Shown here: positions 1 to 27,305 of the stretch, in pieces
Numbering within the stretch: the first letter of the stretch is position 1
How the letters are laid out: each line of letters starts with the position of its first letter
Virus record (IMG/VR): IMGVR_UViG_3300045135_000446
Coordinates: 1 to 40,434 of that record
Length of the DNA stretch: 40,434 nucleotides
DNA from: a virus
Direction: 5' to 3' (one strand)
Translations under genes and position numbers: made by a program
Notes under the pieces: generated by a model
The model's database searches: none
Seen by the model: the letters and a program-made list of their open reading frames with translations, nothing else
What the model was told of the DNA's origin: nothing

Positions 1-3000
1 CGCTCCACTTGGCGCCCAAGGTCGAAAGCCTTCGTCTTGAGGGCATATATCGCATTCTCTTTATAGCCCGGAGTGCCTTTACGTCGCTGTAGCGACTTAG
101 CAAACGATGTCTCTGGTAGAGACTCGACGAACATACGCATAATCTCTGCCTGCACGTCTTGAGGTACTTTGTTTGCTTGTAGGGTCTGCAGCGTCTGACC
201 AACGAACGAACTCGGCGGTGCCTTAGAGTAGTTCGCATTGCTGACGTTGACGAATTTCTCGACGTTCTTGACCGAGGCATCCGCCTTCAGGTCTTCCATC
301 GCACGGTCGCGCTCTTGGATATTCTCAAAGGCTTCGACCGTAAATTCCCCATTGGCAACATAGGACAACCAATAGTTACCAGAACGTGTCAGTGGGAAAT
401 ATGGTTCGATAGTGCCAGTATCAAATAGGCGGGCGTAGACCTCGTTCTTCAACTTCTTGCGCGCAGCCTCATCGGAGATTGTCTCGTCGATCTTGCCATA
501 GATGACGTCCCGCATTTTCTCGTACTGTTTCTTGTACGTGTCGCGCATCTGGGCGTAGATTTTGTCTCCGCCTGTGGCCGACAGGGCCCGCCAGTCATTG
601 CGCATGGCCTTCCATGCCTTAGCTTTTTCTGGGTCGTTGGCGTACGCAGATAACGGCTTGGTCGGGTCTACCTGCTCGACGGTACTCTTATAGACGACGC
701 GGTTCAGGGCATCGACCTGATCCTTGTGCGCCTTAACCCAGTTCGACACAGACTTCAGGACGCCTTCGACTTCTTGGTCAGACTTGTTAATCGCACCGCG
801 CTGCTGCTCCATCATTCTGTGCAGGTCCATAGCACCAGTAATGCCATTGCGCTCGGCGACGTCTGCGACGGCCTGCGAAGGTAGTACGGACAGCCCACCA
901 CGCTTTGCCTTGTCTTTAGCAGGGCCCCGCAAGAACCCAACAAGCTGGTCTGAGTACTTCTGCGTGAACTCTTTTGTGGTCGGTTTAGCCTGCTTCTGCA
1001 CGTCACCAAGCATCTCAGCAACGCGCTTACCTGCAGCGCGGGGGGACAGCATGAAGAACTCTCCACCACCGATATTCTTCGGTGCGGGGGCGAGGATGTT
1101 GTCGATGATGCTGGTGGTCTGGTCCAACGCGGACTCGAGCGGCTTAACAGGTTTACCGATAAGCGACCGCAGGAAGTTGGAGATCGCGGCTTTGAACTTA
1201 GCGAAAGGAGTTAGGGGGTCACCCTCTACCTTCAACCCTGCTAGCATCCGTTGGAACTCGGGGTTCGAGAACGCTTCCGCCACAAACTCGTTCAGGTTAG
1301 TGAACCCATATGCAGTCGGTGCGTAGTCCTTCGTCTCGTCGAAGATTTTCTGCAGCTTGCGTGTGAGCGGGTGGTTCTTCTTTGCTAGTGTCGCAACGGT
1401 TGCGGCGTGAGTCATCTCGTGCAGCAAGGTGTGCGCGTTCATGCCCCCATTCGGAATGTATTCTACCCCGTCGTAGTACGTGGTGTCTGATAACCGGATA
1501 GTGTTGGTATCAAGAGTAAACCGGCCAGCAAAGCTAGCGTCCTTACCAATCTCAATTTTTGTATCGCCAGCCACTTTGGCTAGTTTCTCCGCCACTGCAC
1601 GGACTTCGGGATCAGGGGTGTTCGCCGCGAGTGCACGCAGGGCACCCTGCAGGTTGTTAGCTTTTATGAGGTTCACCACCACACTCGATAGCGGTGCAGA
1701 CGAGGCTTCGGCAGTCATGTTGTACATGCCACCTTTGTAGATCATGGACCGTAGCATCGGGTCGTTCTCGTCGATGCCTAACTTCTCCATGAGTGCTTGG
1801 AGTGCCTTCTCATCTGCATCGGTATTGATGTCGAACCCGCCGTCTAGCAGCTTCTCGATCTCACGGCGTTTGGCAACTAGGTCTGTGGATTGGAACGCTG
1901 CGACGTTTGTATTCAGCTTCTTGGCGTCGCGGATTGCAGTGGCGATCCACTTCTTGGTTTGTCCAGACATGTTCTCAGCCGCCCAGTCTAGGGTGGCTTG
2001 CGCTGCGTTCTTACCACGTGCGGGCAGGTACGCCTTGGTGTCTGGCCCAAAGAAAGCGACCTCCGGTGCAGTCATGTCTTCCGCTTTACGGAAGTTCGGC
2101 GCTTCTGACACCACGTCATCCACCGCGTCCTGTAAGCCGAGGATCGGGTCTTCATACGCACCGAGATATTTCTTAATTGCGCCAACTGTGTTCTTAAGTT
2201 CTTTGCTCGACTTTGTGTTGACAAGTGTCAACACCGCCTCTTTGTCTGCCACGCTCATTGGGTCAGACGCAGGCTCCATGGACATAGACTTCACAAACCG
2301 TTTGTGATCCGTGCTGTTGTTTGCGTCGTAGGCATCCATCAGCTTGGCTTCTACCGAGGCCTTTGTCGCACCAGTACGTGCCGCCGCAGACTTCTTGGGG
2401 GTAGCAGGCTGCAATGCCTTAGTCGCCTTGCGCTTCTCCAATGTAGGCATAACGGGGCGGCGAGTGCCCACCCCTAGTGTACGTTGCTCACCGCTTTTTG
2501 GTGTTGTAGGAGATACAGCGCTCGCGATACGCTCTCCCAATCCTCGTGGCTTAGGTGTTGCAGGTGGTCGGGCACCTCCACCAGTACCTCTGCCCCCTCC
2601 GGGGCCTGCCATGCTGCGTCCACCACGGCGAACGCCTGCTCTATCTCCTCGCTCGACAGGTGCTGAATCGACATCTGTATCCCCCTGTGTGGTATCTGGG
2701 AAAAGCTCAAGTTGTTGCGGGGCGTCCTGCTGCGCAGCAGGTGTCGGAGTAGCTCCGGCTGCCGCAGGTGCCTGTTGCGGAGCCGCTCTACCTGCACGGC
2801 GAGGTGCGAAGAGGTCAGGTTGTTCCGCTGGTACCCCTTCAAGAGCCCGGCTAATACCCAGCTCTGCAGTTTGAGAAGTACGTGGTTGAGCCGCGAAAGA
2901 AGTAAGAATTTGGCGCGTTGCAGGGTCATTTAGGTCACTCCCACGTAGGCGTTGTCGCACAGGCGATCGTGGCGCAATGCCCATCTCGTCAAGCATAGCG

Positions 3001-4958
3001 TCGGTGACAGTGTTTGGTTGCGCTGTAGGCGCTTGTTCCTGCGCGGGGGCTTGCTGAACCCGGCGCCGAATGCCCGGCATGCCGAGCTGTTCTGGCTCAC
3101 GCTGGTCTGTTTGTTCTGGGATACGCGCTTCCATCTCGGCGAGCTGCGTAGCTTCTGGAGGCATCTGCACCGGCTCGGCCACAGTCTGCTCTGGCGGTGC
3201 GGGGCGCTCGGCACGCTGTACGTTTACCGCACGTTGAATTGATTGTAGCTCGGCTTCGGTGGGCTTGGCACGGTCGCCTTTATATCCTGCCTTGGCCAAC
3301 GCATCTTCGTACATACGAGACACGCGGTTGTAATTGCGGCTTGGAGTTTTCTCCACCACATCTTGCAGTATCTGTCGCCGATTCTGTTCGGTGGCTTGCT
3401 GCCGCTGCGTGTCTTGCTGCCCAGTGATGGTCTCTATGTCGGACTCAGCACGGACAGCGGATTCTTCTGCGTCAATAGCGGCGAGTTGGTCGGCGATATC
3501 TGCATCTTCTTGCGCTTCACGTTGGCGCTGGTCCGCTAGATCGACGAGGTCACCCATAGCAGCGGGCTGCTCGGGGACATCTACTTCCGCATCTTCTGGT
3601 ACGTCCATGTACTGATCTGGGCGGCGTAGCTCTTCAGGGCCAAGCCGATTACGCTCTTGTTCTTGCTGCAGTGCAAACAAGTCAGGCTGCTCAAACCCAG
3701 CTTCGTCACCACGTCCGGCAGCGCGGAGTGCCTCACGCTCTCGGGCAGCAGCCTGCGCACGCTGTTCTTCTTCGGGGATCGTGGCTTGCTCAAGCTCGCG
3801 AATCATATCCCGCTGTTCAGGCTCTGGCGCACGTTCTTGGCGTTGGTCAAATAGGCTTAACTGACGCTCATCAGGGCGCTCTGGGCGCTCTGGTTCCATA
3901 CCCAAGTCTTCGTTGGGGAACATTTCACGTTGGTCACCCATAACGCGTACAGGTTGCTGGCCGAGGTCGGCCTCTGGGAACAACTCACCCTGCGCAGGGG
4001 CTTCCGATGCAGTATCTCCACCACGAGCGCGGCGGCCGGCGAACGTATCGACTAAGAGTTGGATTGCAGCACCTGCGCCGCCTCCGATAGCGCCAGCCTC
4101 ACCGGCACCTTCAAGGATAGCCTGTTCAGCGTTGTAGCCACGCTCGTTGAGGTTTTGCATGATGTTGGCCGCAGCTTCTTGCGCGGCTTCCGCTCCACCG
4201 GTCGCAGCTGCGTTTGCGATACGCTCCCCAACTACCGCTGTGGCTCTTTCCCCAATATCCCCAATCAGCCGATTGATTATCGGAGAGACGACGTCTGCGG
4301 TCCCCCCAAGAATACGCCCAACAGGCAAGGCTTCAGTAGAGCCGATTACGGCACCGATCTGTGCCGCGCGGTTACGTTCTTCTGGTGTGGCCCCATATTC
4401 GCGAGCACGTTCGCTTGCTTCCCCAGCACCCGCACCTACACCGACAGCACCAGCACCGAGAAGACCTGCGATACCTGCACCAGCAGCACCTACACCCGCC
4501 GCAGTGGCACCATAAGCAGCGCCAGCACCTACACCTACAGCACCCGCGATAGAGCCAAACGCTTGGCCGACCTTATAGGTAAGGTCTTCCTCGTCACCCA
4601 TGCTTGGAGTCAACGTATTGGCAATGCCTTGGATGCGCTCCCGTGCAGCGAGTTCTTCCTCCTCGTCAAGCATCGTAGCAGCGCCGAGTGCAGCGCTTTC
4701 GCCGAGCCCTACAACCCCAGACGCAAAGCCCCCAGCGAGATCGCCGAAGAAGCCAGACTCGGGGTCCTGCATGGTGACTAACTCACGTTCGCGCGCTTCT
4801 GCTAAACGCTCGCTAGACGTCTTACGCCCGGTCGACACTGTTCGCCCTGCGTTTCGCTGTTGTGTAGCAGCTTGCGCAAGTTGTTCGCGGGTGGCGTTCT
4901 CCGGTGCATCCACTTGCATAGTGGTGCCGTCTCGGAGTGTGAGTGTATACGTGGCCAT
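1..4958 (-). CDS. Giant virion-associated protein with metalloprotease motif (3' end outside window)
   Basis: At least 1652 codons are open from ATG at 4958 to the window edge, so the C-terminus is missing. Residues 1-40 form a small domain (starts MATYTLTLRDG) of a type I recall at the N-terminus of large phage proteins. Residues 90-310 are Ala/Gly-rich, probably helical and membrane-active. Residues 320-760 look disordered, Gln/Glu/Pro-rich, with repeated QxxLF peptides. A zinc metalloprotease motif HEMTH lies at residues 1180-1184 with helix-like flanks. Length, composition and position last in the structural cluster suggest an internal (ejection) virion protein; the protease role is inferred from HExxH alone. 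A polyprotein-type protein expressed in the host is the alternative. It starts 9 bases after the preceding gene. Confidence 0.75.
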   Translation of the reverse strand, partial: MATYTLTLRDGTTMQVDAPENATREQLAQAATQQRNAGRTVSTGRKTSSERLAEARERELVTMQDPESGFFGDLAGGFASGVVGLGESAALGAATMLDEEEELAARERIQGIANTLTPSMGDEEDLTYKVGQAFGSIAGAVGVGAGAAYGATAAGVGAAGAGIAGLLGAGAVGVGAGAGEASERAREYGATPEERNRAAQIGAVIGSTEALPVGRILGGTADVVSPIINRLIGDIGERATAVVGERIANAAATGGAEAAQEAAANIMQNLNERGYNAEQAILEGAGEAGAIGGGAGAAIQLLVDTFAGRRARGGDTASEAPAQGELFPEADLGQQPVRVMGDQREMFPNEDLGMEPERPERPDERQLSLFDQRQERAPEPEQRDMIRELEQATIPEEEQRAQAAAREREALRAAGRGDEAGFEQPDLFALQQEQERNRLGPEELRRPDQYMDVPEDAEVDVPEQPAAMGDLVDLADQRQREAQEDADIADQLAAIDAEESAVRAESDIETITGQQDTQRQQATEQNRRQILQDVVEKTPSRNYNRVSRMYEDALAKAGYKGDRAKPTEAELQSIQRAVNVQRAERPAPPEQTVAEPVQMPPEATQLAEMEARIPEQTDQREPEQLGMPGIRRRVQQAPAQEQAPTAQPNTVTDAMLDEMGIAPRSPVRQRLRGSDLNDPATRQILTSFAAQPRTSQTAELGISRALEGVPAEQPDLFAPRRAGRAAPQQAPAAAGATPTPAAQQDAPQQLELFPDTTQGDTDVDSAPVERGDRAGVRRGGRSMAGPGGGRGTGGGARPPATPKPRGLGERIASAVSPTTPKSGEQRTLGVGTRRPVMPTLEKRKATKALQPATPKKSAAARTGATKASVEAKLMDAYDANNSTDHKRFVKSMSMEPASDPMSVADKEAVLTLVNTKSSKELKNTVGAIKKYLGAYEDPILGLQDAVDDVVSEAPNFRKAEDMTAPEVAFFGPDTKAYLPARGKNAAQATLDWAAENMSGQTKKWIATAIRDAKKLNTNVAAFQSTDLVAKRREIEKLLDGGFDINTDADEKALQALMEKLGIDENDPMLRSMIYKGGMYNMTAEASSAPLSSVVVNLIKANNLQGALRALAANTPDPEVRAVAEKLAKVAGDTKIEIGKDASFAGRFTLDTNTIRLSDTTYYDGVEYIPNGGMNAHTLLHEMTHAATVATLAKKNHPLTRKLQKIFDETKDYAPTAYGFTNLNEFVAEAFSNPEFQRMLAGLKVEGDPLTPFAKFKAAISNFLRSLIGKPVKPLESALDQTTSIIDNILAPAPKNIGGGEFFMLSPRAAGKRVAEMLGDVQKQAKPTTKEFTQKYSDQLVGFLRGPAKDKAKRGGLSVLPSQAVADVAERNGITGAMDLHRMMEQQRGAINKSDQEVEGVLKSVSNWVKAHKDQVDALNRVVYKSTVEQVDPTKPLSAYANDPEKAKAWKAMRNDWRALSATGGDKIYAQMRDTYKKQYEKMRDVIYGKIDETISDEAARKKLKNEVYARLFDTGTIEPYFPLTRSGNYWLSYVANGEFTVEAFENIQERDRAMEDLKADASVKNVEKFVNVSNANYSKAPPSSFVGQTLQTLQANKVPQDVQAEIMRMFVESLPETSFAKSLQRRKGTPGYKENAIYALKTKAFDLGRQVE

Positions 4959-4967
4959 GAGGTACCC

Positions 4968-6830
4968 TTACTGGATGTCAATGATATCTTCAGGAGACAC
5001 CATCTCGGTGTCAACACTGAAGCCCGCACCTTGTGCAATAGCCTTAGCTAGGTCAGACTCAAGGTCTAGCAACGAAACACCATCTTCTTCCTCCTGCTCC
5101 ATAACCATGTTTGCTCTGGCCACCATAGCGGCGTATCGTGCGTCCCGGCGCTCCGCAAGGTCTCTAGCTAGCTCTGTATCACCGTCGTCCAGGGCTTGGT
5201 TTGCGTCTACCATAAGTGCATTATATTCCGGGTCCGCATTTAACTGACTCTCTACAAGGGCCGCGCGCGTTTCGTGTATCTTACTTAACGCCTGGAGTGC
5301 GTTATCGGACCGCATGTTATCCGCGGTCACAGCATCCGCCGCCTGCAAGCGCGCTTCCTTCATTAAGTCTAGTTCGTAGGTGCGGTCGTCTTGCATGCGG
5401 TCATAGTCACGCTGCGCTGCTTCTCGCAGGCCACGCACCTGCTCCAACTTCATCTGGGATATGGCGCTGTACACGGTGCGCTGGTTTTGCATCGTCTGCG
5501 CGTACATCTCGCGGCCCAGCTGCATGCCGGTCTCCGCGGCGGACATATCAAGCTGCATACCCTCTTGGGCCAACTTAAATTGGTCCATAAGCCGACCACG
5601 TGCCTGCGCGTTCTGCCGGTCCCGGGTACGTAGTGAAGCCGCGGCTCCCGAGGCCATAGTCGAGCCTGCTGTAGTACCACGTGCGTTGATTAAGAACGAG
5701 ATAAGTTGGTCCCGTTTTTCCTGTTTAGGGTCGTACCGCTCAGCGTCGAACTCCTCGAGCTTCTGCTGCATAGCGTCATACTCTGCGGCGTTCTCGTTCC
5801 GGCGGGTATACGCATCTGCGGTGGCGAACCCCTGCTGCATAGCGCTGTTGGCGCTGCCGCCACCAATACCACCCATGTTAGCCGCTGCATCGCTAGCTGC
5901 GGCGACGGGATCAACAGCCGGTGAAGGTGCCGCATCAACAGTCGGTGAAGGTGCCGCATCAACAGTCGGTGAAGGTGCCGCGGCTTCGGTCGGCGCGTTG
6001 TTAGGGCGAGTCGCCGGGCCTAAACTTGCGATCCCACCAGCGGGGGCGTTGTTAGGGCGCGTGAGGGGGCCGGCACCAAGGCCCGCCAAGTCAGCTCCCA
6101 TGGGTGCGTTTTGAGTTCTTTTAGGGGCGATCTGAGGGTTCGTCGCTGACATAACGTCAAGTGCGCTTGTCTCTGACCCTACTGGGATATTCCCCCTAAC
6201 TCCAGGCATACGTGCGCTCGAGGCGCGCCCTACAGGAGTAACAAAATCGCGCTGTTCTTCTGCTCTCGGCTGCTGTTGGCGTAGCTGGGAGATCAAACTC
6301 TGCTTTTGACCTTCGTTCAGATCGCTACGGCGGCGCACAATGTCAATCTGTTCTTGTAGGGACAGGTCCTCAGAGAGACCACCCATACCCCCTACGGCCC
6401 CGCCGGGGGCAAAAGCAACTAGCCCACCGGATGCCATTTTCGGCATGCCTTGTGGGGCACCTTGCGGTGCAGGCTGTGGGGCGGGTGGACGCTGTCCGGC
6501 TAACGCGCCGAGGCCACCCTTGGCGACCTGCTGCATGTTCTTCTGCTGTTCGGCCTGACGCTGCTGTAGAATACCCTGTGTCTGCTGCATCATCTCCTGT
6601 TTTGTCATACCGAGGAGTTCAGCTTCACGCTGCTGCTTGATCGTCTCAGGCTGTTGGGCCATCTGCATCTGCATGTCGCGTGCAGCGGCTTCTTTCTCAG
6701 ACTTGAGTTTTTGCAGGGCGAGGAGGTCCACCAGCTGCTGGTTCTGTGCATAGCGTTGTTGTAGCGCCTGTGGGTTACCACGGTACGCGTCTACCTTGCT
6801 CTGAATTTCTTGGTCGATGCCGTTTGCCAT
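4968..6830 (-). CDS. Gln/Met-rich coiled-coil virion protein candidate, 620 aa
   Basis: No enzymatic domain is recognised. Residues 1-105 are a Gln/Met-rich helical region (start MANGIDQEIQ). Then come a Pro/Gly/Ala linker with two GG motifs (AKGGLGA at 103-109, MASGGLV at 132-138), an Ala/Pro-rich low-complexity stretch around residues 270-310 containing a short tandem repeat (APSPTVDA and variants), and a charged helical C-terminal half (about 340-600) typical of coiled coil. It lies between other large or unusual virion-type genes, 11 bases after the upstream stop. I infer a structural or internal virion protein, partly by position. The start has an AAGGG sequence upstream. Confidence 0.6.
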   Translation of the reverse strand: MANGIDQEIQSKVDAYRGNPQALQQRYAQNQQLVDLLALQKLKSEKEAAARDMQMQMAQQPETIKQQREAELLGMTKQEMMQQTQGILQQRQAEQQKNMQQVAKGGLGALAGQRPPAPQPAPQGAPQGMPKMASGGLVAFAPGGAVGGMGGLSEDLSLQEQIDIVRRRSDLNEGQKQSLISQLRQQQPRAEEQRDFVTPVGRASSARMPGVRGNIPVGSETSALDVMSATNPQIAPKRTQNAPMGADLAGLGAGPLTRPNNAPAGGIASLGPATRPNNAPTEAAAPSPTVDAAPSPTVDAAPSPAVDPVAAASDAAANMGGIGGGSANSAMQQGFATADAYTRRNENAAEYDAMQQKLEEFDAERYDPKQEKRDQLISFLINARGTTAGSTMASGAAASLRTRDRQNAQARGRLMDQFKLAQEGMQLDMSAAETGMQLGREMYAQTMQNQRTVYSAISQMKLEQVRGLREAAQRDYDRMQDDRTYELDLMKEARLQAADAVTADNMRSDNALQALSKIHETRAALVESQLNADPEYNALMVDANQALDDGDTELARDLAERRDARYAAMVARANMVMEQEEEDGVSLLDLESDLAKAIAQGAGFSVDTEMVSPEDIIDIQ

Positions 6831-6841
6831 GTGAGTAACCC

Positions 6842-7705
6842 TTAGCTGGTAGATGTGTCGCTAGACGTAGCGCCTGACAACAGATCATATAATTTCTGGA
6901 TGCCCCCAGTAGTCTGCATGACGTTTGAAAGTTCGCTAGGTTGCATGTACGAGTAAGACTGCGCTGCGATCGGGAGACCTTGCAGGAGCGACTGCATGTA
7001 CTGCACCTGCTTGTAGGGGAAGTCCCGCTCTTCCTCAAACTGCAGGCGATCTGCGTCGATACCGGCCTGTTCGATATCGCGCTGAATACCGCCAAGTTCA
7101 GCCTGTTTCGTCAGTGCAGCAAGCCCATAGGTATTGGCGGCGGTCTGTGCCTCCAGCTCGCGGCCTTGCTCAGTGTTAAACTGCTGCATGGCCTTATCGT
7201 AGGCGGTGGCGTAGCCCGTACCAGTGATGCCCGCGAGATTGGTGAGCAGGTTGCGGTTGAGCTCCGACTCCATGATGGCCTGACGAGACCCCCCATACGC
7301 ACCAGCACGAGTAAGCCGCCCGGCGTCGGCAACGCGTTGGATTTCGGCCTGCCGACGGGCTTCATCAATCTGCGGCTGGAGTGCTGCATTTAGGTAGGGG
7401 TTCATATACTGCTGCGCGGCTTCAGCGGTAAACTGCTGCGGGGTGAATGCACCCATCTGATCCGTGGGGATAGTCAGCCCCCCGATACCACCAAAAGCTG
7501 CCGATTCTGCAGCGCTGGGTCCTGCGGTAAGTGGGCCGGTATATGCTTGGTAGGATTGGTCAGCCATACCCCAGCCACGTCCGAGCATATCAGTGACATA
7601 AGGCCCCGCCCAGTTAGACAGGGAGGACTCAGTGCCGGTGTGCTGCCCGAGTAGCGGGTCTGTGGTATTAGCCGTATCGGTGGTTGTTGTGTTGTCAGTA
7701 GCCAT
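6842..7705 (-). CDS. Conserved phage protein, 287 aa, probable virion component
   Basis: Function is not known. The N-terminus (MATDNTTTTDTANTTD) is Thr/Asp-rich and probably disordered. Residues 25-60 contain the NWAGPYVTDMLGRGW segment that I recall from many marine phage genomes, followed by a Gly/Ala region and a Gln-rich helical centre (about 85-220). No transmembrane segment or catalytic motif is visible. The ATG at 7705 follows a GAGGTGA ribosome-binding sequence and lies 8 bases from the upstream stop, so it belongs to the same transcript as its neighbours. A role in tail or internal virion assembly is inferred only from context. Confidence 0.6.
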   Translation of the reverse strand: MATDNTTTTDTANTTDPLLGQHTGTESSLSNWAGPYVTDMLGRGWGMADQSYQAYTGPLTAGPSAAESAAFGGIGGLTIPTDQMGAFTPQQFTAEAAQQYMNPYLNAALQPQIDEARRQAEIQRVADAGRLTRAGAYGGSRQAIMESELNRNLLTNLAGITGTGYATAYDKAMQQFNTEQGRELEAQTAANTYGLAALTKQAELGGIQRDIEQAGIDADRLQFEEERDFPYKQVQYMQSLLQGLPIAAQSYSYMQPSELSNVMQTTGGIQKLYDLLSGATSSDTSTS

Positions 7706-7713
7706 GGCTCACC

Positions 7714-8541
7714 TCACTTGGGCATAACGGAAGCAGGGTTGATCTGCTTACCTTGTTGCGTTGTACCAGTGCGTTCCTGCCGAGCACGGTCCATCATATT
7801 GTATAGCTGTTTTGCACCTGCCTCTGAATTGCCGTTGCCAAGGTGGCTCACGACATCTGCAGGGATTACAAATTCACCATCACTGAGGGCTGCTGGTTGG
7901 TTCCCGTCGATCTGCGCAGGGACTTCATCGGCCATACCGTCAGTCGGACCACCAAGATAATAGCCGTTTTTCTTTTCTTCTGGCGTACTCATCGGGCTAC
8001 GAGGGCCGTACAGCCCAGCGAGCCCACCAGCAGCGTATTTCGGCTTAAACCCTGCAAGCCCTTCTACAGGGCGGGGTACCGGCGCGTCCTCGATTACCCG
8101 TGCAGGTGCACGAGAGAGGATAGGCGCCATGCTGGCCTGAGTTTGCTGCTGTGACTGTTGTGGCTGTGGGGCTGGAGGGCGCGTCTGGCGGGCAGGATTA
8201 CTAGCATTTAACGCTGCGAGACCTTGTGCCTGCTCCTCTAGTGCAGGGATCGCACTTGCTTCCCCTTTGGGCGTGAATACGCGGTCAGACATATACCGTT
8301 GCCCACTGCTCCCTGGACGCCGGTTTGGGTCGTAGGTGTTAGCTACTTCGGCACGCTCCATTGTGTAGCGTGGGATACCCCCTTGGTACCCCACTGGTGG
8401 GGCTGAGGCGTTTGCAAAATCAGATTTGCTTAGGGCGTAGCTGCCCCCAAGAGATACTAGGCCACGAAACCAGTCAACCTCACCATCTTGGCCAGTGAAA
8501 GCGTCCCCAATTCCGTCTATAGTTTCTGATAACCAGCTCAT
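7714..8541 (-). CDS. Conserved phage protein with GEFVIPADVVSHLGNG motif, 275 aa
   Basis: The C-terminal third (about residues 195-275) has the sequence pattern GGPTDGMADEVPA, then DGEFVIPADVVSHLGNG (221-237), then a helix around AGAKQLYNMMDR. This region is highly conserved in many phage genomes as I recall them, but its role is not established. The middle (100-160) is Gln/Pro/Ala linker, and a YAAGGLA peptide lies at 169-175. Start and upstream stop overlap as ATGA (8538-8541), which implies translational coupling to the 2071-aa gene. A virion accessory or chaperone role for the giant proteins is plausible but unproven. Confidence 0.6.
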   Translation of the reverse strand: MSWLSETIDGIGDAFTGQDGEVDWFRGLVSLGGSYALSKSDFANASAPPVGYQGGIPRYTMERAEVANTYDPNRRPGSSGQRYMSDRVFTPKGEASAIPALEEQAQGLAALNASNPARQTRPPAPQPQQSQQQTQASMAPILSRAPARVIEDAPVPRPVEGLAGFKPKYAAGGLAGLYGPRSPMSTPEEKKNGYYLGGPTDGMADEVPAQIDGNQPAALSDGEFVIPADVVSHLGNGNSEAGAKQLYNMMDRARQERTGTTQQGKQINPASVMPK

Positions 8542-11500
8542 TTTGTCTCTCCGATAATGCGTAACAACTTATCAGTTGTATCCTCTACCTGTCCACCCTC
8601 TGCGTAGGGGCTAGGGAATAGTGAGGCCTGTGATGGCGTAGCAAATACGCTCTGCCAGTCGTAAATGTAGTTAATCCGCATTGGATCAGGTGTATCTACG
8701 TCGACACGCTGCCCGTACAGGTCTGCCTGCTGAGACACATAATCTCCGAAGGCCTTGCGGCGCGCAGTTTCAGCCTGTGTTTCAGCCTGTGTCTGTAGCT
8801 GAGTTTGCAGTTGCGTAGCAAGCTGGGTCTGAGTTTGGGTTTGTTGGTCAATAAGCGCCTGCGTCTCGGCCTCGGCGGCGAGCTGTGCGTCGAGGTTCGC
8901 TTGGTTCTGCGCGTAAAGCCCCGTCGCCGGGCCAAACATCGAGCCGGGTGCAAAGGTAACGTCAGTGCCTGCGAGCGCTTGCTCCAATAGGGCGAAGTCG
9001 TCTTGGTTGATTATACCGTCACCGGTCACGTCGTATTGACGCTGTGCTCTAGTAAGGTCTGTGATGACTTCTTGCTGCGCGATAAGATCGGCAACAAAGT
9101 CGATGTCCACCTGCGTTACGTCACGCGCAGGCTTACCGATCAGGGATGCAATGAAGTCCAGATCAGCTTGGTTAGTTTCTGCAACCCCCGTAAGCTGATC
9201 CTGTAGTGACTGTGCAGTCTCGCCCATCTGCGCAAGCAGGGTGGTTTCAGTGACGCCGAGTTCGGTGGCAAGCTCGCTGAGTGCTGTCTGGAGCGCTTCG
9301 TCGCGGGCGATACCCGAATCCTCTAGCTCCTGCACTTTGGAGAGGAGGGTCTCTTCGACGTTACCGATCGTGGTCTCCAACCCACCGATTTGATCCAGCA
9401 ACGACTGTTCAGTCTCGCCGATCTGGTCCAGTAGGCTTTCTTCGGTGACACCAAGCTCCGTAGCGAGCTCGTCCAAGGCAGTCTGGAGTGCCGTATCGCG
9501 AGCAATACCGGAGTCTTCCAGCTCCTGCACACGGTCCAGAACCCTAGTTTCTACGTCACCAAGTTGGCCTTCAAGGCCGGTCTGGATTTCAGCAAGCTGG
9601 TCCAGCAACGACTGTTCAGTCTCGCCGATCTGGTCCAGTAGGCTTTCTTCAGTGACACCAAGCTCCGTAGCGAGCTCGTCCAAGGCAGTCTGGAGTGCCG
9701 TATCGCGAGCAATACCGGAGTCTTCTAGCTCCTGCACACGGTCCAGAACCCTAGTTTCTACGTCACCAAGCTGGCCTTCAAGGCCGGTCTGGACTTCAGC
9801 AAGCTGGTCCAGCAACGACTGTTCAGTCTCGCCGATCTGGTCCAGTAGGCTTTCTTCGGTGACACCAAGCTCCGTAGCGAGCTCGTCCAAGGCAGTCTGG
9901 AGTGCCGTATCGCGAGCAATACCGGAGTCTTCCAGCTCCTGCACACGGTCCAGAACCCTAGTTTCTACGTCACCAAGTTGGCCTTCAAGGCCGGTCTGGA
10001 TTTCAGCAAGCTGGTCCAGCAACGACTGTTCAGTCTCGCCGATCTGGTCCAGTAGGCTTTCTTCAGTGACACCAAGCTCCGTAGCGAGCTCGTCCAAGGC
10101 AGTCTGGAGTGCCGTATCGCGAGCAATACCGGAGTCTTCTAGCTCCTGCACACGGTCCAGAACCCTAGTTTCTACGTCACCAAGCTGGCCTTCAAGGCCG
10201 GTCTGGACTTCAGCAAGCTGGTCCAGCAACGACTGTTCAGTCTCGCCGATCTGCTGGAGCAAGTCGTCACGCGTGGTGTTGAGGTTCTGTGCTACCTCGT
10301 CGATTGCGGCGTTGAGCGCCTCGTCGCGCGCCATGCCCGCGTCTTCGTTAGCAGCAATCTGGTCGAGGAGTGCCGTCTCTACGTCACCGAGCTGGGTTCC
10401 AAGGTCTTCTACGGCGGTTTCGACACCGGAGATGCGGTCGTTGAGAGACTGCTCAGTTTCACCAATGCGGGTGAAGATATCTTCACGTGCCACACCAAAC
10501 TCAGTAGCAAGCTCGTCGACTGCAGTCTGGATAGCTTGATCGCGGGTCATACCCGCTTCTTCGTTGGCCGCGATCTGGTCAAGAAGCCGCTGCTCGGAGT
10601 TAGCGATGTTGTCCCGTAGGACGCCCATCTCTTCGTCAATAGTGTATCCGAGGGCCTCGAACTCAGCCATTGTGTCTTCGCGGACGCTAGCTATTTCAGC
10701 CGCAATTTCGTCGGTCGAAAACCCCCCGTTTTCAAGGGCTTCCCGGAACTCAACCAACTGCTGTTGCAGTGCATTAAAGCGCGCGGTTGGCAGGTTTTCT
10801 TCTGCGCGGCCCGCGAGGTCTGCCTCGTCATACTGCCCCACAAGTGCGTCAATATCAGCCGCGGTGGGGATCGTGAGCCCCAGCGCTTCATATGCAGCGC
10901 GGACTTCATCCGCATCAACCATGCGTGGGTCTACGTATGTATCCAGCTCCGACTGCACTTCTGTTTCGGCTTGTTGCCGCACGAACTGCGCAACTTCCTC
11001 GTCGGTCGGAGTGTATCCGATATCTGCAAAGTACTGCCGAGCTTCCTCTTCCGTGACTTGGTTTACGTCAACAAACTGGGACAGTTCATTGAGGATATCG
11101 CTCTCGGGGCCCTCACGCATGAACTGCTGAAGTTGCTCTGGGGTGGGGTCGAACCCTTGCTCCGCGAACGCATCGCGCGCTTCTTGCTCGTTGACCGCCT
11201 GCGGGTCGTATTTCTGTTGAATCGAGTACAGCGCCGCCTGCGTAGCTTCGGGGTCACCAGTCTGTGTGACCATATCCTGTGCCTGCTCGTCGGTGAGCGT
11301 GACACCCTCTGCAGCTGCAGCTGCTTTTACCTCTTCAATATCGACGTAGCGCTGATCGACATACGTGTTCACGTATGTGGTGACGTCTTGTCCTGCGGAG
11401 TTCAACACACCATTCAGCACGTCGGCGTTGGTAACCTTGAAGTCAGGGTTCGCAGAAAATGCACGGGAAATATCCCCGTTGCTGTGGTATTGGTCGCTGA

Positions 11501-14500
11501 CGGTGCTGAGTATGTTGTTCTGCACAACTTCGTCGTCCAGACCTAAGTCTTTGAGGGCGGCTTTCGCGGCCTCTGGGTCCGACCCGCCGTTTGATATAGC
11601 GTTGCGCACTGTTGTGTTAGTCCGAACAAGCGCGTCGGCGACTGTGTGTCCTGTATAGATGCCACCTGCGGTGCCCGCACCGGCGATTGCGCCGAGCGTA
11701 GACGCCTGAAGAACCGCCCCTAGTACATCGCGCTCTGGGTCGATCTGGGTCAGCACCGTCTCGGTAAGCAGCGTGGGGAGCCCCTCTTCGATGGACTCTT
11801 GGACGCCTTCTTTCCAAGTTACGTTGCCGCCCTCGACTACTTTCTCTTTGACCCAGTCAAACGCCTGAGCGGTTGTGCCCGTAGCTTCCCGACCAAGAAT
11901 AGACTTCTCAAAGGCGTTACCGCCAATGCCCATACTGGCAAGGGTCGTAGCGGCACCGACCATGCCGGCAGAAATGGCGACGTCTCGGGCGTAAGATTCC
12001 GCTTCCGTTTCAGACATACCAGTCCGCACTGCGGTCGCGAAGGCTTCATCATATGCGGAGCCTGCTGCACCCCCGAAGGATTCGGCCAAGTCCAGTGTAG
12101 CTGCGGTACCCAGCGCAGCACGGCGAGCCATAGTCTGCGCCGCTTGCTCCCCCGCGGTAGCGAGGAGTCGCTTAGTGATGTTGCCGGTACCCCCGCTGGC
12201 GAGGAGGATTGGAATCTCTTGTAGTAGTTCCTTGCCGATTATCTCCGCGGTGAACTGCAGAGGGGCTTCCTTAAACCCACCCCAAACTGCCGCTACTTTG
12301 CCCCAGCCTTCGCCCTGCGCCATTATTGCGTTCATGTCAGCTACGGCTGCGTTCCACTCGTCAGTCTTAACGTCTCCCCCAAGGGCGATCATATCCCGCG
12401 CAGTCTTACCCATTGGGGTGCTCGCAGGGTTAATGTTCACGAGGAGGAGCATATTGTTAAACGTATCGAGGAGCTCGCCCCCTGCTTCGAGAGCGATACC
12501 TGCTGTGTTCATAACCGCGGGAGTGTCTTTCGCGGCACCCACAACATTGCGTGCAAATTCGGACACCGCCTGGCCAACTTGGGTGTCGATCAACGCGCCG
12601 GCAGCTTCGCTAAGCCCTCCGACCACTTGGATGAACGCGCTAGGGTTTTCGTCCTTGAGATCAATGATGCTAGGGGCAGTGATTTCTAGTCGTAGTGGGC
12701 CCGGCAGGATTTCGTTGTTAAGGGCATTTACGGTCACCATACCGTCGAGCGAGGCGTCGTACTCGTCCCGGACGATCATATTATGTTCAGGTGACCAATA
12801 CGGGACACTCATCGATATTCGGCCCCATTCGAGGAGCCCTTCCGGTGTGACTAGGCGTACCGCAGTCCCATCTGCGATATCTTCGTCGGTTACGCCTTCT
12901 TGGCGCCCTATGTTCTCGACAACGTCCCGTATGTCAGGTGCGCGTGTTAGTGCCCTGACATCTTCTTGTGTGAGGTACTCACCCTCCAGCCCACGAGGGA
13001 TACCTGCACGTTCCAGAGCGGCGTTGATTTCTGGAGTAATAGTAGTCTGACCCGCCACATACCCTTGGGCAGCGGCGCGGTCTGCCATGGATTGGTTAGT
13101 AAGCAGCTCGTCCGCCAAGTCCCTAGTCGGTGCGTTTCTTAGCGCCTGTAGGGTCGGATACTCGGTGTCGATCGCAGACATAAACGCTGCGCGTTCGACT
13201 TGGTTCATGTCCGTTAGGGACAGGCCAGCTTGTTTCAATGTCAGGTTTATGACCGATTGCCGCTGCGCCTCGTAGCGCTCGTCATATGCTGCTGCGTTAG
13301 TCGGCAGGCCTTGGTCCTTACCTTCGGCAAGCCAGTGCGCGTACGCATCTTCGCCAGCGTCGAGCCCTGCGATCTCCCGGTACTCCGCCTCGTTAAAGCT
13401 CGGGTCCATGAACTTGACGAACGTACGATCTAGTTCTTCGTAGACCGGCTTTAGCTCTTCGTTTAGTCGGTCTGAGGACACGGATAAGTCTGCGACAAAG
13501 TCGTTATACACTTCAGTTTCAGCATCGAACTCAGCTTCGTACTGCGCTGCGAGCTGCTCGTACTGGTCAAGTTTAGGCTGCAGGACGTCTTCGTACCGTG
13601 GGCGCCAGGTTTCCACATAGTCATTGAAGTCGGCAACCGCGGTTTCCAACGCTGCGGCATTGGCTTGACTCTCGTTTGCTTGGAAGTTTTGCAGCGCGCG
13701 CTCATATGCCGTCTCTAGCCGCGTCTGTTCGGCAAACCCATCCTGAACCTCTGTTAGCGTAGCGTTATAGGTATCTACCGCACTACGATGCTGTGCCACC
13801 TTGGCATCTAGCTTTTCCGCTTGTGCTTGGGCGCGCTGGTAGTCACCCGTAATTTTGTCCATCGTGTTGTTAATGGCATCGCCGACTTTTGAGTTGTCGA
13901 CAAACTCTTTGAACTCTTGCTGTCCGTACTCGTTGAGGGAGGAGAGGATGGCTTCAGGTACATCGCCACCGCCGAACGCCGCAGCGGCGGTACGTTGGAT
14001 GCCAAGCGTAAGCGCACTGATTTGCTTATCGTTAAGGTCAGTGTTGTCCCCTAAGAACCCGCCGACAGTGTCGGTTACTGTCTTGGTGCTGAGCACAGCG
14101 TTCCAAAGCAGTTCAGGGGTTACCTCTTGACCGCTGAGGGCGGCGCCTAGTCCAGAAGTGATTACGTTTTTAGCTGCATCGGGTAGCTTGGAAAAAGCAC
14201 CTTCCGTCTCGGTCTCGATCCACCCCATTGCAGCACTAAGACCCGCATTGAGCCCGCCGGATACAAAAGCCTGTAGTGGGTCTTGCCCCATAACAAGTGC
14301 TACGGAAGCCTTACCAGCACCGGACCCAATAATTTGAGAGGCTAGTTCTGAACCACCTGCATCGGCAACAGCCTGCCCGGCTACCTCACCGACAGTACTA
14401 CCAATTTTGCCGCCAACATATGAAATAGCCGCGGATTTCAGGGCGTCTCCAAAGTCACCGCCGTTTGCAAGTGTCCCCGCAGCATCAATAAGTGGTATAG

Positions 14501-14753
14501 CCCAAGCCTGCCCAGTCATCGTAGCAGCGGCCTTCAACACGAATTGCCCTACGTCTGACTTTAGTACGTCCACCACAACGTCGCCGACAGGTTTCACGAT
14601 CTCTTCGTATACCCAGTCCGCTGCGCCAGTCTTATGCGACAGAACCGCTGCGCCTACGCCGACGACTGCGGCGGTGGCAATACTGGCGCCGGCGGTTATC
14701 GCCACTGCGCTCGCGCCTGCGCCGACTGCTAGAGCTACTACTGCGGGGGGCAT
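8538..14753 (-). CDS. 2071-aa giant protein with coiled-coil repeats, candidate internal virion protein
   Basis: Residues 1-40 and several later stretches are Ala/Val/Gly hydrophobic helices. Residues 310-430 are charged coiled coil. Residues about 890-1035 form an Ala/Gly helical module resembling one in the protein ending the window. Residues 1131-1310 hold four repeats of about 47 aa (YVDxR followed by an acidic helix). Residues 1380-1850 are coiled-coil repeats, including four near-identical 69-aa copies at 1501-1787. An EF-hand or dockerin-like loop starts at D1908 (DVTGDGIINQDD), and the C-terminus carries YAEGGQV. No peptidase or transglycosylase motif was recognised. Size, membrane-active composition and neighbours fit an ejection protein like the large T7 core proteins in role, not sequence. 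A fibre or tape-measure-like protein is the alternative. Confidence 0.7.
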   Translation of the reverse strand: MPPAVVALAVGAGASAVAITAGASIATAAVVGVGAAVLSHKTGAADWVYEEIVKPVGDVVVDVLKSDVGQFVLKAAATMTGQAWAIPLIDAAGTLANGGDFGDALKSAAISYVGGKIGSTVGEVAGQAVADAGGSELASQIIGSGAGKASVALVMGQDPLQAFVSGGLNAGLSAAMGWIETETEGAFSKLPDAAKNVITSGLGAALSGQEVTPELLWNAVLSTKTVTDTVGGFLGDNTDLNDKQISALTLGIQRTAAAAFGGGDVPEAILSSLNEYGQQEFKEFVDNSKVGDAINNTMDKITGDYQRAQAQAEKLDAKVAQHRSAVDTYNATLTEVQDGFAEQTRLETAYERALQNFQANESQANAAALETAVADFNDYVETWRPRYEDVLQPKLDQYEQLAAQYEAEFDAETEVYNDFVADLSVSSDRLNEELKPVYEELDRTFVKFMDPSFNEAEYREIAGLDAGEDAYAHWLAEGKDQGLPTNAAAYDERYEAQRQSVINLTLKQAGLSLTDMNQVERAAFMSAIDTEYPTLQALRNAPTRDLADELLTNQSMADRAAAQGYVAGQTTITPEINAALERAGIPRGLEGEYLTQEDVRALTRAPDIRDVVENIGRQEGVTDEDIADGTAVRLVTPEGLLEWGRISMSVPYWSPEHNMIVRDEYDASLDGMVTVNALNNEILPGPLRLEITAPSIIDLKDENPSAFIQVVGGLSEAAGALIDTQVGQAVSEFARNVVGAAKDTPAVMNTAGIALEAGGELLDTFNNMLLLVNINPASTPMGKTARDMIALGGDVKTDEWNAAVADMNAIMAQGEGWGKVAAVWGGFKEAPLQFTAEIIGKELLQEIPILLASGGTGNITKRLLATAGEQAAQTMARRAALGTAATLDLAESFGGAAGSAYDEAFATAVRTGMSETEAESYARDVAISAGMVGAATTLASMGIGGNAFEKSILGREATGTTAQAFDWVKEKVVEGGNVTWKEGVQESIEEGLPTLLTETVLTQIDPERDVLGAVLQASTLGAIAGAGTAGGIYTGHTVADALVRTNTTVRNAISNGGSDPEAAKAALKDLGLDDEVVQNNILSTVSDQYHSNGDISRAFSANPDFKVTNADVLNGVLNSAGQDVTTYVNTYVDQRYVDIEEVKAAAAAEGVTLTDEQAQDMVTQTGDPEATQAALYSIQQKYDPQAVNEQEARDAFAEQGFDPTPEQLQQFMREGPESDILNELSQFVDVNQVTEEEARQYFADIGYTPTDEEVAQFVRQQAETEVQSELDTYVDPRMVDADEVRAAYEALGLTIPTAADIDALVGQYDEADLAGRAEENLPTARFNALQQQLVEFREALENGGFSTDEIAAEIASVREDTMAEFEALGYTIDEEMGVLRDNIANSEQRLLDQIAANEEAGMTRDQAIQTAVDELATEFGVAREDIFTRIGETEQSLNDRISGVETAVEDLGTQLGDVETALLDQIAANEDAGMARDEALNAAIDEVAQNLNTTRDDLLQQIGETEQSLLDQLAEVQTGLEGQLGDVETRVLDRVQELEDSGIARDTALQTALDELATELGVTEESLLDQIGETEQSLLDQLAEIQTGLEGQLGDVETRVLDRVQELEDSGIARDTALQTALDELATELGVTEESLLDQIGETEQSLLDQLAEVQTGLEGQLGDVETRVLDRVQELEDSGIARDTALQTALDELATELGVTEESLLDQIGETEQSLLDQLAEIQTGLEGQLGDVETRVLDRVQELEDSGIARDTALQTALDELATELGVTEESLLDQIGETEQSLLDQIGGLETTIGNVEETLLSKVQELEDSGIARDEALQTALSELATELGVTETTLLAQMGETAQSLQDQLTGVAETNQADLDFIASLIGKPARDVTQVDIDFVADLIAQQEVITDLTRAQRQYDVTGDGIINQDDFALLEQALAGTDVTFAPGSMFGPATGLYAQNQANLDAQLAAEAETQALIDQQTQTQTQLATQLQTQLQTQAETQAETARRKAFGDYVSQQADLYGQRVDVDTPDPMRINYIYDWQSVFATPSQASLFPSPYAEGGQVEDTTDKLLRIIGETK
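9394..10253 (-). repeat. In-frame tandem repeat: 207-bp unit nested in an exact 414-bp duplication
   Basis: The segment CCAAGCTCCG recurs at 9451, 9658, 9865 and 10072, exactly 207 bp (69 codons) apart. Variants alternate A-B-A-B: copies 1 and 3 share one set of differences (for example TCTTCCAGC), copies 2 and 4 another (TCTTCTAGC). Bases 9394-9839 and 9808-10253 match without a difference by eye, so the last event was a 414-bp duplication of a two-unit block. Diverged relatives of the unit continue on both sides. Confidence 0.95.
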
Positions 14754-24615: not shown

Positions 24616-25233
24616 TTATGCAGCTACAAGGGACAGATCAGCCGTCCACTCGTCAAACTGTTGCTTCGTGTTTCCGCCATATCCATAAGTAACATGAAAC
24701 TGCTTATGATGCGATTGGCAGAGCGTTACGCCATTGTCAGGATCAAAGCGTAATTCTTTGTTGGCTGTAAAGCCCTCAAGGTGGTGGGCGTGAAGGTCGT
24801 GGTCGTTAATACCACAGACTACGCATTGATAGCCGTCACGCTGAAAAACCTGATTACGCCACTGCGTGTATTCTAAGCGCCCACGCCACGCTCGTGAAGT
24901 GTCCTCAAAACTGTCTGCCGCACGTCTGCGTTTGCAGTAGCACTTGAAGCAGATATCAGCACTTCTGTTTGCCTTATCACCACCGCAATCAGAGCAAGGG
25001 GGAGGGCCACCTTTCCACATTCCATTGTTTGCACCAGAATTGTCTGCCCCAAGCATTGGGTTATTCAACACAACGTGTTTTGGCCTGATCTCAATACCAA
25101 ACTCAAGTACAGCTTTCCTTGCTGAATAGAAAGAACAAACAACCTCATCGCATATTTGACGGAACGACATAGGGCGCTGATACATCTCAGCAATCAGCTT
25201 GCGCTTTTCGTATGTCAGAGCGGGGCGTCCCAT
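24616..25233 (-). CDS. HNH homing endonuclease-like protein, 205 aa
   Basis: Residues 8-45 look like a helix-turn-helix (YEKRKLIAEMYQ, FRQICDEV). Two Cys pairs follow (CSDC 80-83, CFKC 95-98), then NNGMWKGG at 69-76 as in NUMOD3-type DNA-binding segments. The HNH nuclease core has Cys137/Cys140, the HAHH block (148-151), Asn167 and a C172-x2-HH-x3-H segment, giving a complete zinc-stabilised beta-beta-alpha metal site. This suggests a free-standing homing endonuclease lodged in the fibre region. The start shares one base with the fibre stop (TGATG), a tight coupling that is unusual for a recent insertion. Confidence 0.85.
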   Translation of the reverse strand: MGRPALTYEKRKLIAEMYQRPMSFRQICDEVVCSFYSARKAVLEFGIEIRPKHVVLNNPMLGADNSGANNGMWKGGPPPCSDCGGDKANRSADICFKCYCKRRRAADSFEDTSRAWRGRLEYTQWRNQVFQRDGYQCVVCGINDHDLHAHHLEGFTANKELRFDPDNGVTLCQSHHKQFHVTYGYGGNTKQQFDEWTADLSLVAA

Positions 25234-27305
25234 CAGTACGAGACCTCGCTCGTGGAAATTGTAGCCACAAACCGAATGTTTGTTGACGCTGCGCCAGTAG
25301 CCTCAATCTTGAGACCACCGTTCGTAGTGTCGGCGGAAAGGGCAAGACCCCATGATGGAGTGTTGTCCAAGACAGTTGTAGCTGAGTTGACTAGCACAGT
25401 CGTGCCTGCCGAACCTTCCCTGCGGATCAAACCCTCAACCTTCCATGCTGCACATGCAGTGCCTTGAGAGGCTTGCTGACGGGCTACGATGGTGCCGTGG
25501 AAGGCGTAGGCAGAGTTGTTGGGGAGGATGATTTGGTCTGTTGTGCCAGCGGCACTGTTGTTTGTCGTCAGGGCTTCTGGTGTTGCGTCCGTGGTGTCAG
25601 ATCGAAGAACAAAAGTTCCTGCTTGGGCGTCACCAGAAACAGAAAACATACCTGACGCAAAAGCCATTTTTCCTTCTTTATCACTATTTGCGTCATGCCC
25701 AAAAGCCACTGAGTTTCGTTCTGTGGCTTGCGCTTGGTCTCCTATAGCCACCGAAAACAAACCAGAAGCAACAGTCACATCGCCAATGGCCAAGGAGCGG
25801 GTGCTGCTACTTTTTGCAAACCGCCCAATAGCCACCGAGTTCGCCCCACTAGCGCCATAGGAACTGGTGTTGTTGGCTATAGCTGCTGCGAAGGAGTCTG
25901 TGCCAGAGGCGTAGGAGCCGCCAAGAGCAATGGCACCGCTGCCCGTCCCTGCGACAGCACCAGCCGCAGATGAATTAGCACCCGCCGCAAAGCTGTAACC
26001 ACCGCTTGCAGTTGCACCATATCCAATAGCAATAGCGCCAGAGCCGCTTGCATTTGCAGCCGTTGAGCTATTGGCGTTGTCATAAGAAAAACCACGGGGG
26101 AAGTCACTTTCTGTGACCAACCAGTTCGTGCCATCAGACACAATCTTTACGGTTTGTCCACGTTTAACAAGAAACGTAGACGCACCTTCAATCGTTTCCG
26201 TTCCATCTGGATCAATAGTCAACCCGCCAGTTGTCTTGTTTGAACGAATATAGGCATACCAGCCAGAGCCAAGAGTGGCTGCGGAAGTTAAGGTAGCAGT
26301 AACTGCGCCCGTGCCAGTAAACTCAATAATCTTACCTAGATCGCCAGAAACGAGAGTATAAGCAGCGGATTTGCTGTCGATTGTTATTGCTTCTGGTCCC
26401 CCAGAAGCATCTGCAAATGTAACAGCACCAGAGCCGTCAGTCGTCAGAACCTGACCAGTAGTCCCGTCTGTAGTTGGCAGGGTGTAGGTGCCACTGATCT
26501 GAACCGTGTCAGTTGTGCCACCAAGTGCAATCAGGTTGGCCGTAGTGGAGAGAGCCGTGTCACCGATAGCAATGCTGTTGGCTTGAGTAGCCCGTGCAAG
26601 CTGGCCGATAGCGATGCTGTTAGCACCAGTAGCGCCATAGCTTGAGGTGTTGTTGGCGATGGCGGCGGCGAAGGAGTTGCTGCCTGATGCGTAGGAGCCG
26701 CCTATTGCGGTGGCTGCGGTGTTTGACCCAGAAGTGACTGAGCCAGCAATAGAACTATTAAGCCCAATGGCAGTAGATAGCCCCGAACCAGCAGTAACAC
26801 CACGGCCTAGTGCGATGGCAGAGCCTTGAGATGCCGAAGCACCATAGCCAATCGCCAAAGTCCGAAAACCTACACCTGTAGATGCCCCCGCCCCAATAGC
26901 TACACTTTCAGCAGCAGCAACGCTTGCCCCACTCCCAATAGCCACAGCATTAGTGCCAGTCGCACTAGGCGCAGTAGGGCTGGACGGGTTCTCAGCATAC
27001 AGTTCAAGCGAAGGAATATCCTCCGCAGCAGCCGACACATACACCACAGCACTACCTGACAAGTTTAGCAAAGAGCCTGTAGAACTCTCGTCAAGTGTAC
27101 GTGTGAGGGTCGTTCCAGACGCTGTGTAGGTGCCTGAGCCGATCTCCCAAGCATTCCCATCTTCAATGACATAACGAACTACATCCCCGTCAGCCACGCC
27201 AGCCGCAGCAAATGTTTGGTAGCCACTCTCAGCAGAACCAAGAGTGATTGTGCCTGTGCCCGTAGTGGACGTGGCTACTTTGGCTCTGTTTACGAGAGTG
27301 ACCAT
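25233..27305 (-). CDS. Tail fibre-like protein with YadA-type repeats, 690 aa
   Basis: Residues 1-95 are a beta-rich attachment domain ([19 protein letters not shown], later [16 protein letters not shown]). Two blocks of AIGxGA-type YadA-like repeats (about 115-260 and 410-545) are separated by a beta region around 300-395 ([19 protein letters not shown], later [18 protein letters not shown]). The C-terminal 140 residues form a tip domain resembling that of the 465-aa fibre. A 33-residue stretch starting GGSYASG occurs twice, at residues 202 and 462. Probably a trimeric receptor-binding or intermediate fibre. The start follows AAGGAGCTAAACC, a strong ribosome site. Confidence 0.8.

Follow-up and report, generated by a model that had tools for sequence, protein, structure and literature searches.

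A clade-specific array of putative sliding-clamp-binding peptides in the linker of a giant polyvalent phage protein

We found that the linker of a giant polyvalent protein (P0001) of a marine phage carries an array of six short peptides of the form Q..[LM]F, which is far beyond chance, is conserved at the protein level in a clade of environmental phages and resembles the motif by which bacterial proteins bind the sliding clamp (the DnaN beta clamp). The explanation to which we incline, with a confidence a little above the halfway mark, is that the array is a clade-specific set of peptides that would bind the clamp of the host from within an injected protein; packaging, ejection, DnaN binding and the consequence for the host are what we infer from the sequence. 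The stretch of DNA analysed (the window) is an entire virus record of 40,434 bases, the features of which are collected in Table 1.

Table 1. Features of the window that are discussed in the text
Feature	Residues	Position	Strand	Remarks
Giant polyvalent PLxRFG protein P0001	first 1652	1..4958	-	Open frame to the record end; LPD39, DarB-like and PLxRFG matches; C-terminus past the record
Motif 1, QGELF	323-327	3978..3992	-	Followed by PEADLG; QGELF, QGEMF or QEELF at the orthologous site in relatives
Motif 2, QREMF	343-347	3918..3932	-	Followed by PNEDLG; QREMF, QGEMF, QGELF or QRELF in relatives
Motif 3, QLSLF	366-370	3849..3863	-	Full clamp consensus; QLNLF, QLDLF, QMDLF, QGELF or QGDLF in relatives
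Motif 4, QPDLF	424-428	3675..3689	-	Flanked by two predicted helices, within the conserved block AFEQPDLFALQQEQERRRLG; some relatives read QPDLL
QLGMP	624-628	3075..3089	-	Degenerate relative of the motif, context Q..[LMF]PG[ILFM]; from sequence
Motif 5, QPDLF	713-717	2808..2822	-	Context EGVPxxQ[PL][DE]LF; QLELF at the orthologous site in L064
Motif 6, QLELF	749-753	2700..2714	-	From sequence
Zincin-like metallopeptidase domain	about 1143-1281	1116..1532	-	HEMTH at residue 1180 (1407-1421) and conserved Glu downstream
LPD39 domain	1347-1506	441..920	-	Pfam PF18858, 1.2e-14
Neighbours of the giant (620, 287, 275 and 2071 aa)		4968..14753	-	Virion module; 287-aa product like DNA ejection protein family (phrog_4287, 8.9e-5)
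2071-aa neighbour		8538-14753	-	Repeats at 9394-10253
HNH endonuclease gene		24616-25233	-	Between two tail genes
Tail protein		25233-27305	-	YadA-head repeats (Pfam 9.8e-28)
Capsid		30926-31831		Virion module
826-aa product		34521-37001		Cultured-phage matches annotated portal or head-to-tail connector
Terminase		37012-38574		Virion module

P0001 is encoded by one long frame that is truncated at the end of the record, and since its full-length relatives measure about 2,100-2,400 aa, the window holds roughly 70% of the giant. Its domains are arranged in the order disordered linker, lethal-factor-like zincin, LPD39 and PLxRFG domain. Against PHROG, P0001 matched phrog_10089 (DarB-like, 1.3e-11). 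The PLxRFG model NF032893 scored 63 bits (1.6e-17) on the window part, which is truncated by the record end, under the whole-protein cut-off of 100, and 374 bits (1.2e-111) on the complete relative L001, which is thereby a member of the PLxRFG family. Profile matches of the zincin were to the tetrameric ejection protein gp48 of phage PhiM1 (8vb2, E 0.0026) and to anthrax lethal factor (E 0.0026-0.011 across both), and a fold search with a model of the C-terminal part gave weak lethal-factor-like matches only (E 0.6). With an HExxH zincin, LPD39 and PLxRFG in one polypeptide, and ART-PolyVal in the relative L013, disparate domains are combined in a single protein, and P0001 belongs to the polyvalent giants as understood by Iyer et al. 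2017 (PMC5512222). The ADP-ribosyltransferase domain ART-PolyVal of L013 (8001-15110, residues 1097-1233, 2.3e-18) is inserted directly ahead of the zincin active site, and another ART-like stretch, judged by eye only, was seen in L020 and L032.

With the phage polyvalent proteins described earlier (DarB/DdrB, N4 vRNAP; PMC5512222) the giant shares its size, the zincin-like peptidase, LPD39, ART-PolyVal (in L013) and its location in the virion module; the main text of that description makes no mention of the clamp, linear motifs or disorder. Unlike P0001, the cultured DarB-like giants that were tested lack the array, and the PLxRFG giant of Klebsiella phage SopranoGao, which has the same C-terminal domain (NF032893), is without any Q..[LM]F. 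The similarity to gp48 of Pectobacterium phage PhiM1 (PMC11440229) comprises the HExxH region and a downstream YG..xEF glutamate region and is limited to about 150 residues.

An initial sequence-only reading had reported the six peptides, two of them fitting QLxLF, and had argued that five Q..LF in such a linker would hardly arise by chance. We confirm this observation, and the clamp interpretation attached to it is supported in part. All six were indeed present at those positions in the translation of P0001 (the two being QLSLF and QLELF), and no further Q..[LM]F was found across its 1652 aa. When linker residues 311-770 were shuffled 20,000 times, Q..LF occurred at most twice (observed 5) and Q..[LM]F 0, 1 or 2 times (observed 6); shuffling of the whole protein gave no more than 3 and 4 copies, respectively. 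The enrichment extended to relatives from viral contigs: in the linkers of 26 non-redundant giants (less than 80% identity in the C-terminal part) 65 copies of Q..[LM]F were counted, whereas local shuffles gave an expectation of 1.8 (maximum 6 in 150). The controls in the same giants were at or near chance, both for the reversed and re-spaced motifs (F[LM]..Q 3, Q.[LM]F 0, Q...[LM]F 4, Q....[LM]F 7 with 1.9 expected) and for other anchors (E..[LM]F 3, D..[LM]F 1, and 0 each with A, R or P). Chance in a Gln-rich sequence was ruled out by the shuffles together with the spacing and anchor controls.

The composition of the 65 copies was uneven, with P26, G17, L12 and R7 at position 2 (others single; aliphatic in about a fifth), E31, D30, N3 and S1 at position 3, and L54 and M11 at position 4. 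At orthologous sites positions 2 and 3 are exchanged, leaving Q, L/M and F unchanged, as is expected of a clamp-type motif. For instance, the third copy is QLSLF in the window, QLNLF in L006, L010, L012 and L013, QLDLF in L066 and L068, QMDLF in L052, QGELF in L001 and QGDLF in L081, and the fifth is either QPDLF or QLELF; QLELF was also found in EGTP contexts resembling that of the fifth copy (L051 and L072). The 31 copies of QPDLF that were counted are encoded by 21 distinct DNA sequences, indicating that the peptide is conserved at the protein level. Mean flank conservation was 0.27 for the 41 linker copies outside two conserved contexts. The expectation that homologues would retain the peptides in drifting linkers was thus borne out, as the middle residues, most flanks and the synonymous codons vary and the anchors are kept, and neither did scrambled sequences give similar counts nor did the homologues as a whole lack the peptides. 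The fourth copy belongs to a conserved block of about 40 residues (flank conservation 0.73), and this block between helices, together with QPDLL in some relatives, may have a structural role of its own. A second recurring motif of the linker, Q..[LMF]PG[ILFM] (QLGMPGI, QPALPGL, QPSLPGL, QPSFPGM), drifts as the LF peptides do and may be a further docking peptide.

The array appears to be a feature of one environmental clade, since ten large proteins of eight cultured phages (DarB-like or related giants) together contained 3 copies, where about 4.3 would be expected; with these ten proteins a general trait of polyvalent giants was ruled out. In the cultured virion-module relatives (Pelagibacter HTVC027P/HTVC023P, Roseobacter CRP-901, Caulobacter RW, 023Pt_psg01 and DSL-LC04) those proteins at the corresponding position that were examined have neither HExxH nor the array. 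A block-B query found no match in phages, a block-A query gave no confirmed match in viral contigs, probably owing to the filtering of low-complexity sequence, and no prophage homologue was confirmed in the genome contigs searched. Among plasmids, homologues in which might separate virion from host roles, there were only two weak matches, both in PLxRFG-domain proteins.

Of the clamp motif QL[S/D]LF, positions 1, 4 and 5 matter most and position 2 is variable in DnaE1 (PMC3919608); the canonical form is Q-aliphatic-x-[L/M]-[F/L], with QLDLF as the strongest peptide and mostly negative flanks (PMC11139829). All six copies in the window have Gln at 1, L/M at 4 and Phe at 5. Position 2, where an aliphatic residue and preferably Leu is expected, is Leu in QLSLF and QLELF and Pro, Gly or Arg in the other copies. 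The flanks (7+7 residues) are negative, with a mean charge of -2.7 versus -0.6 at other linker Gln, the window copy at 713 having +1. Disorder of the linker, as stated in the sequence-only reading, was predicted for five of the six copies, those at 323, 343, 366, 713 and 749 lying in coil with a pLDDT of about 30-38 in an AlphaFold2 model of residues 1-900 (shallow alignment of 12 sequences, mean pLDDT 53), and not for the copy at 424, which is placed between predicted helices 380-415 and 427-438 (pLDDT about 58).

The known clamp-binding motifs of DnaE/Pol III alpha (QADMF in E. coli), UmuC (QLNLF), PolC (QLSLF), MutS, Hda and transposases show the same Gln at 1, L/M at 4 and Phe at 5, and likewise an acidic or small position 3, exposure or disorder and acidic surroundings; QLSLF in the window and QLNLF in relatives are exact matches. 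The phage linker differs in having up to six copies where those proteins have one or two, in its frequent Glu at 3 and Pro or Gly at 2, and in belonging to a giant of the virion module. In 65 sampled Pseudomonadota loci the DnaE clamp motif was Q-x-x-[LMI]-F in 51, with D19, S14, A9, G6, N2 and M1 at position 3 and mostly S, V, A or G, never Pro, at position 2. None of these 51 has the Pro at 2 or the Glu at 3 that occur in 26 and 31 of the 65 phage copies; Glu is present at the equivalent of position 3 in the phage-display clamp binder LQLELDF (PMC11139829). The proposed match to the clamp consensus stands for L/M at 4, F at 5, the acidic residue, Asn or Ser at 3, the acidic flanks and the ideal QLDLF, QMDLF and QLNLF of relatives, with Pro at 2 and Glu at 3 as forms that have no counterpart in the DnaE sample.

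Delivery of the giant into the host is suggested by gene order, an ejection-like neighbour and the similarity to gp48. The virion module consists of terminase, the 826-aa product, capsid, SU10-type adaptors, tail genes, an amidase and four products (one of them ejection-like), followed by the giant; to judge by this order and by its domains, the giant probably travels in the virion and enters the host together with the DNA. In the 2071-aa neighbour there are about four coiled-coil-like repeats of 69 residues that are nearly identical to one another (207-bp period, 98% match). The HNH endonuclease gene between two tail genes is probably a homing-type mobile insertion, and the adjacent tail protein carries adhesin-type repeats in what is a phage fibre.

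The linker has been exchanged naturally between close relatives. Upstream of the linker the DNA identity of L081 and L077 is 92%, and downstream of it 93%. Compared in blocks of 100 residues, their giants agree at 90-100% apart from L081 residues about 293-879, which show 20-38% identity over the first 390 residues and recover via 72% and 89%. L081 has QGELF, QGELF, QGDLF and QPDLF, and L077 has no copy, only two QPDLL. Similarly, L013 has four copies and L016 none; here too the linker has been exchanged, with 84-99% identity from the zincin active site onward to the C-terminus. In both pairs the zincin, the C-terminus and the neighbouring virion genes persist, which shows that neither the conserved adjoining virion proteins nor the zincin have the array as an obligatory partner. 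In L077, L085, L086, L014, L021, L022, L056 and L059 the place of the LF array is taken by a small helical domain (like LGEMEDIVARTGISLPDLETVVSEE), and in none of the 54 tabulated proteins did this domain occur alongside the Q..[LM]F..DLG array. Judged from these comparisons, the linker acts like an exchangeable cassette.

These swaps bear on the alternative, already raised by the sequence-only reading, that the peptides are contacts for virion assembly or packaging, through which the giant would dock to the portal, the capsid or the other ejection proteins in the manner of a capsid-targeting sequence. Phage heads often make use of short docking peptides, the giant is located at the end of the virion gene module, and the 2071-aa neighbour has a QxxLF of its own (QASLF) in the conserved C-terminal context IFATPQQAxLFPSPYAEGGQV, which we kept apart from the array because its position 3 varies among relatives and its conserved context is different. 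Four copies in L081 against none in L077 at 92-93% DNA identity on both sides, the similar case of L013 and L016, and copy numbers of 0 to 6 in similarly built giants (6 of the 26 linkers have no copy) weaken this alternative, which we retain as an unlikely one.

Slightly less credible is that the peptides bind another host protein recognizing Q-x-[DE]-[LM]-F. This would suit the acidic position 3 and the frequent Pro or Gly at 2, a signature slightly unlike that of DnaE, and the confinement of the array to one phage clade. No further bacterial hub with such a signature is known to us, and the ideal clamp forms QLDLF, QLNLF, QMDLF and QLSLF recur at one orthologous site. The beta clamp is moreover the documented bacterial hub that reads QxxLF (PMC11139829, PMC3919608).

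It is improbable that the peptides are sites at which the metallopeptidase of the giant cuts the polyvalent protein into units. Autoprocessing has been proposed for polyvalent zincins (PMC5512222) and the copies lie in an exposed linker, but HExxH is retained in relatives without linker copies (L016, L019-L022, L077, L085 and L086), a cut site needs no Gln anchor at a fixed spacing three residues ahead of L/M-F, and several copies are only 20-23 residues apart, so that tiny pieces would be released. That the copies have no binding function and were spread by linker-cassette recombination and internal duplication, as the exchange of the linker as a block, the duplicated appearance of the QGELFPxxDLG and QREMFPxxDLG units and the unusual conservation of the copy-4 block could suggest, is very improbable, as synonymous codons vary widely with Q, L/M and F kept, middle residues differ at orthologous sites and copies occur in at least three unrelated contexts.

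According to the clamp-binding explanation, the array would consist of bacterial sliding-clamp-type short linear motifs (Q-x-[DENS]-[LM]-F) in a giant that enters the cell from the virion along with the DNA. Once in the host cytoplasm, the array could make several simultaneous contacts with the DnaN beta clamp, as each clamp ring has two identical peptide pockets, and occupy the pocket on which host Pol III and further clients depend; in this way the giant, with its peptidase, might be held at the host replisomes while the phage family-A polymerase starts. Counting against this explanation are the Pro at 2 and Glu at 3 that the DnaE sample lacks, the conserved helical block around the copy at 424, which may be a different element, the six relatives without a linker copy and the lack of enrichment in the giants of cultured phages from other hosts, the clamp being universal. 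A blocking role is plausible, since expression of the peptide MGPRQLDLF inhibits growth of E. coli (PMC11139829).

One may go further and, as a speculation that we consider unlikely, picture a virion-delivered multivalent clamp trap, in which the array cross-links or saturates host DnaN, brings the metallopeptidase to replisome proteins and stops host replication in the first minutes, the linker being an exchangeable targeting cassette (clamp array or small helical domain) that retargets a constant injected enzyme. The targets of most domains of injected polyvalent giants are unknown; a clamp array, if real, would name one host target, and would suggest that the linkers of these giants serve as exchangeable address labels. 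Phage proteins that inhibit host replication by targeting its clamp or clamp loader (staphylococcal phage DnaN binders, N4 gp8) are small and expressed early. The effect proposed here, occupation of the host clamp, would be the same by analogy, and the array differs in being virion-delivered and multivalent. To our knowledge, there is no earlier example of a phage that carries a multivalent beta-clamp ligand in its virion.

The replication genes of relatives point to the host clamp as the plausible target. No DnaN match was found in the records of eight relatives, all possibly incomplete and some fragments, and a clamp of the phage itself was set aside as target on this ground. A related record of 59.8 kb (G002) carries genes for a family-A DNA polymerase, a primase-helicase, a SNF2 helicase and an exonuclease, and a family-A polymerase was present in all ten relatives tested. 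None of ten full or partial family-A polymerases examined contains Q..[LM]F, and the phage polymerase was set aside as a fellow clamp user. The earlier suggestion that the giant recruits host replication to incoming DNA loses weight, because relatives bring a family-A polymerase of their own that lacks a clamp motif; occupying or exploiting the host clamp seems more likely than recruiting host Pol III to phage DNA. An alphaproteobacterial host is only plausible, since the cultured phages nearest by terminase and portal, with 30-46% identity, infect several hosts (Pelagibacter, Roseobacter, cyanobacteria, Caulobacter and a gammaproteobacterium). The family-A polymerase frame of one relative (L270 of G129) starts with an intein-like C-terminal end (GPRHRFVANGKLVHN/SDSI) after an out-of-frame stretch, possibly reflecting an intein or a split polymerase gene.
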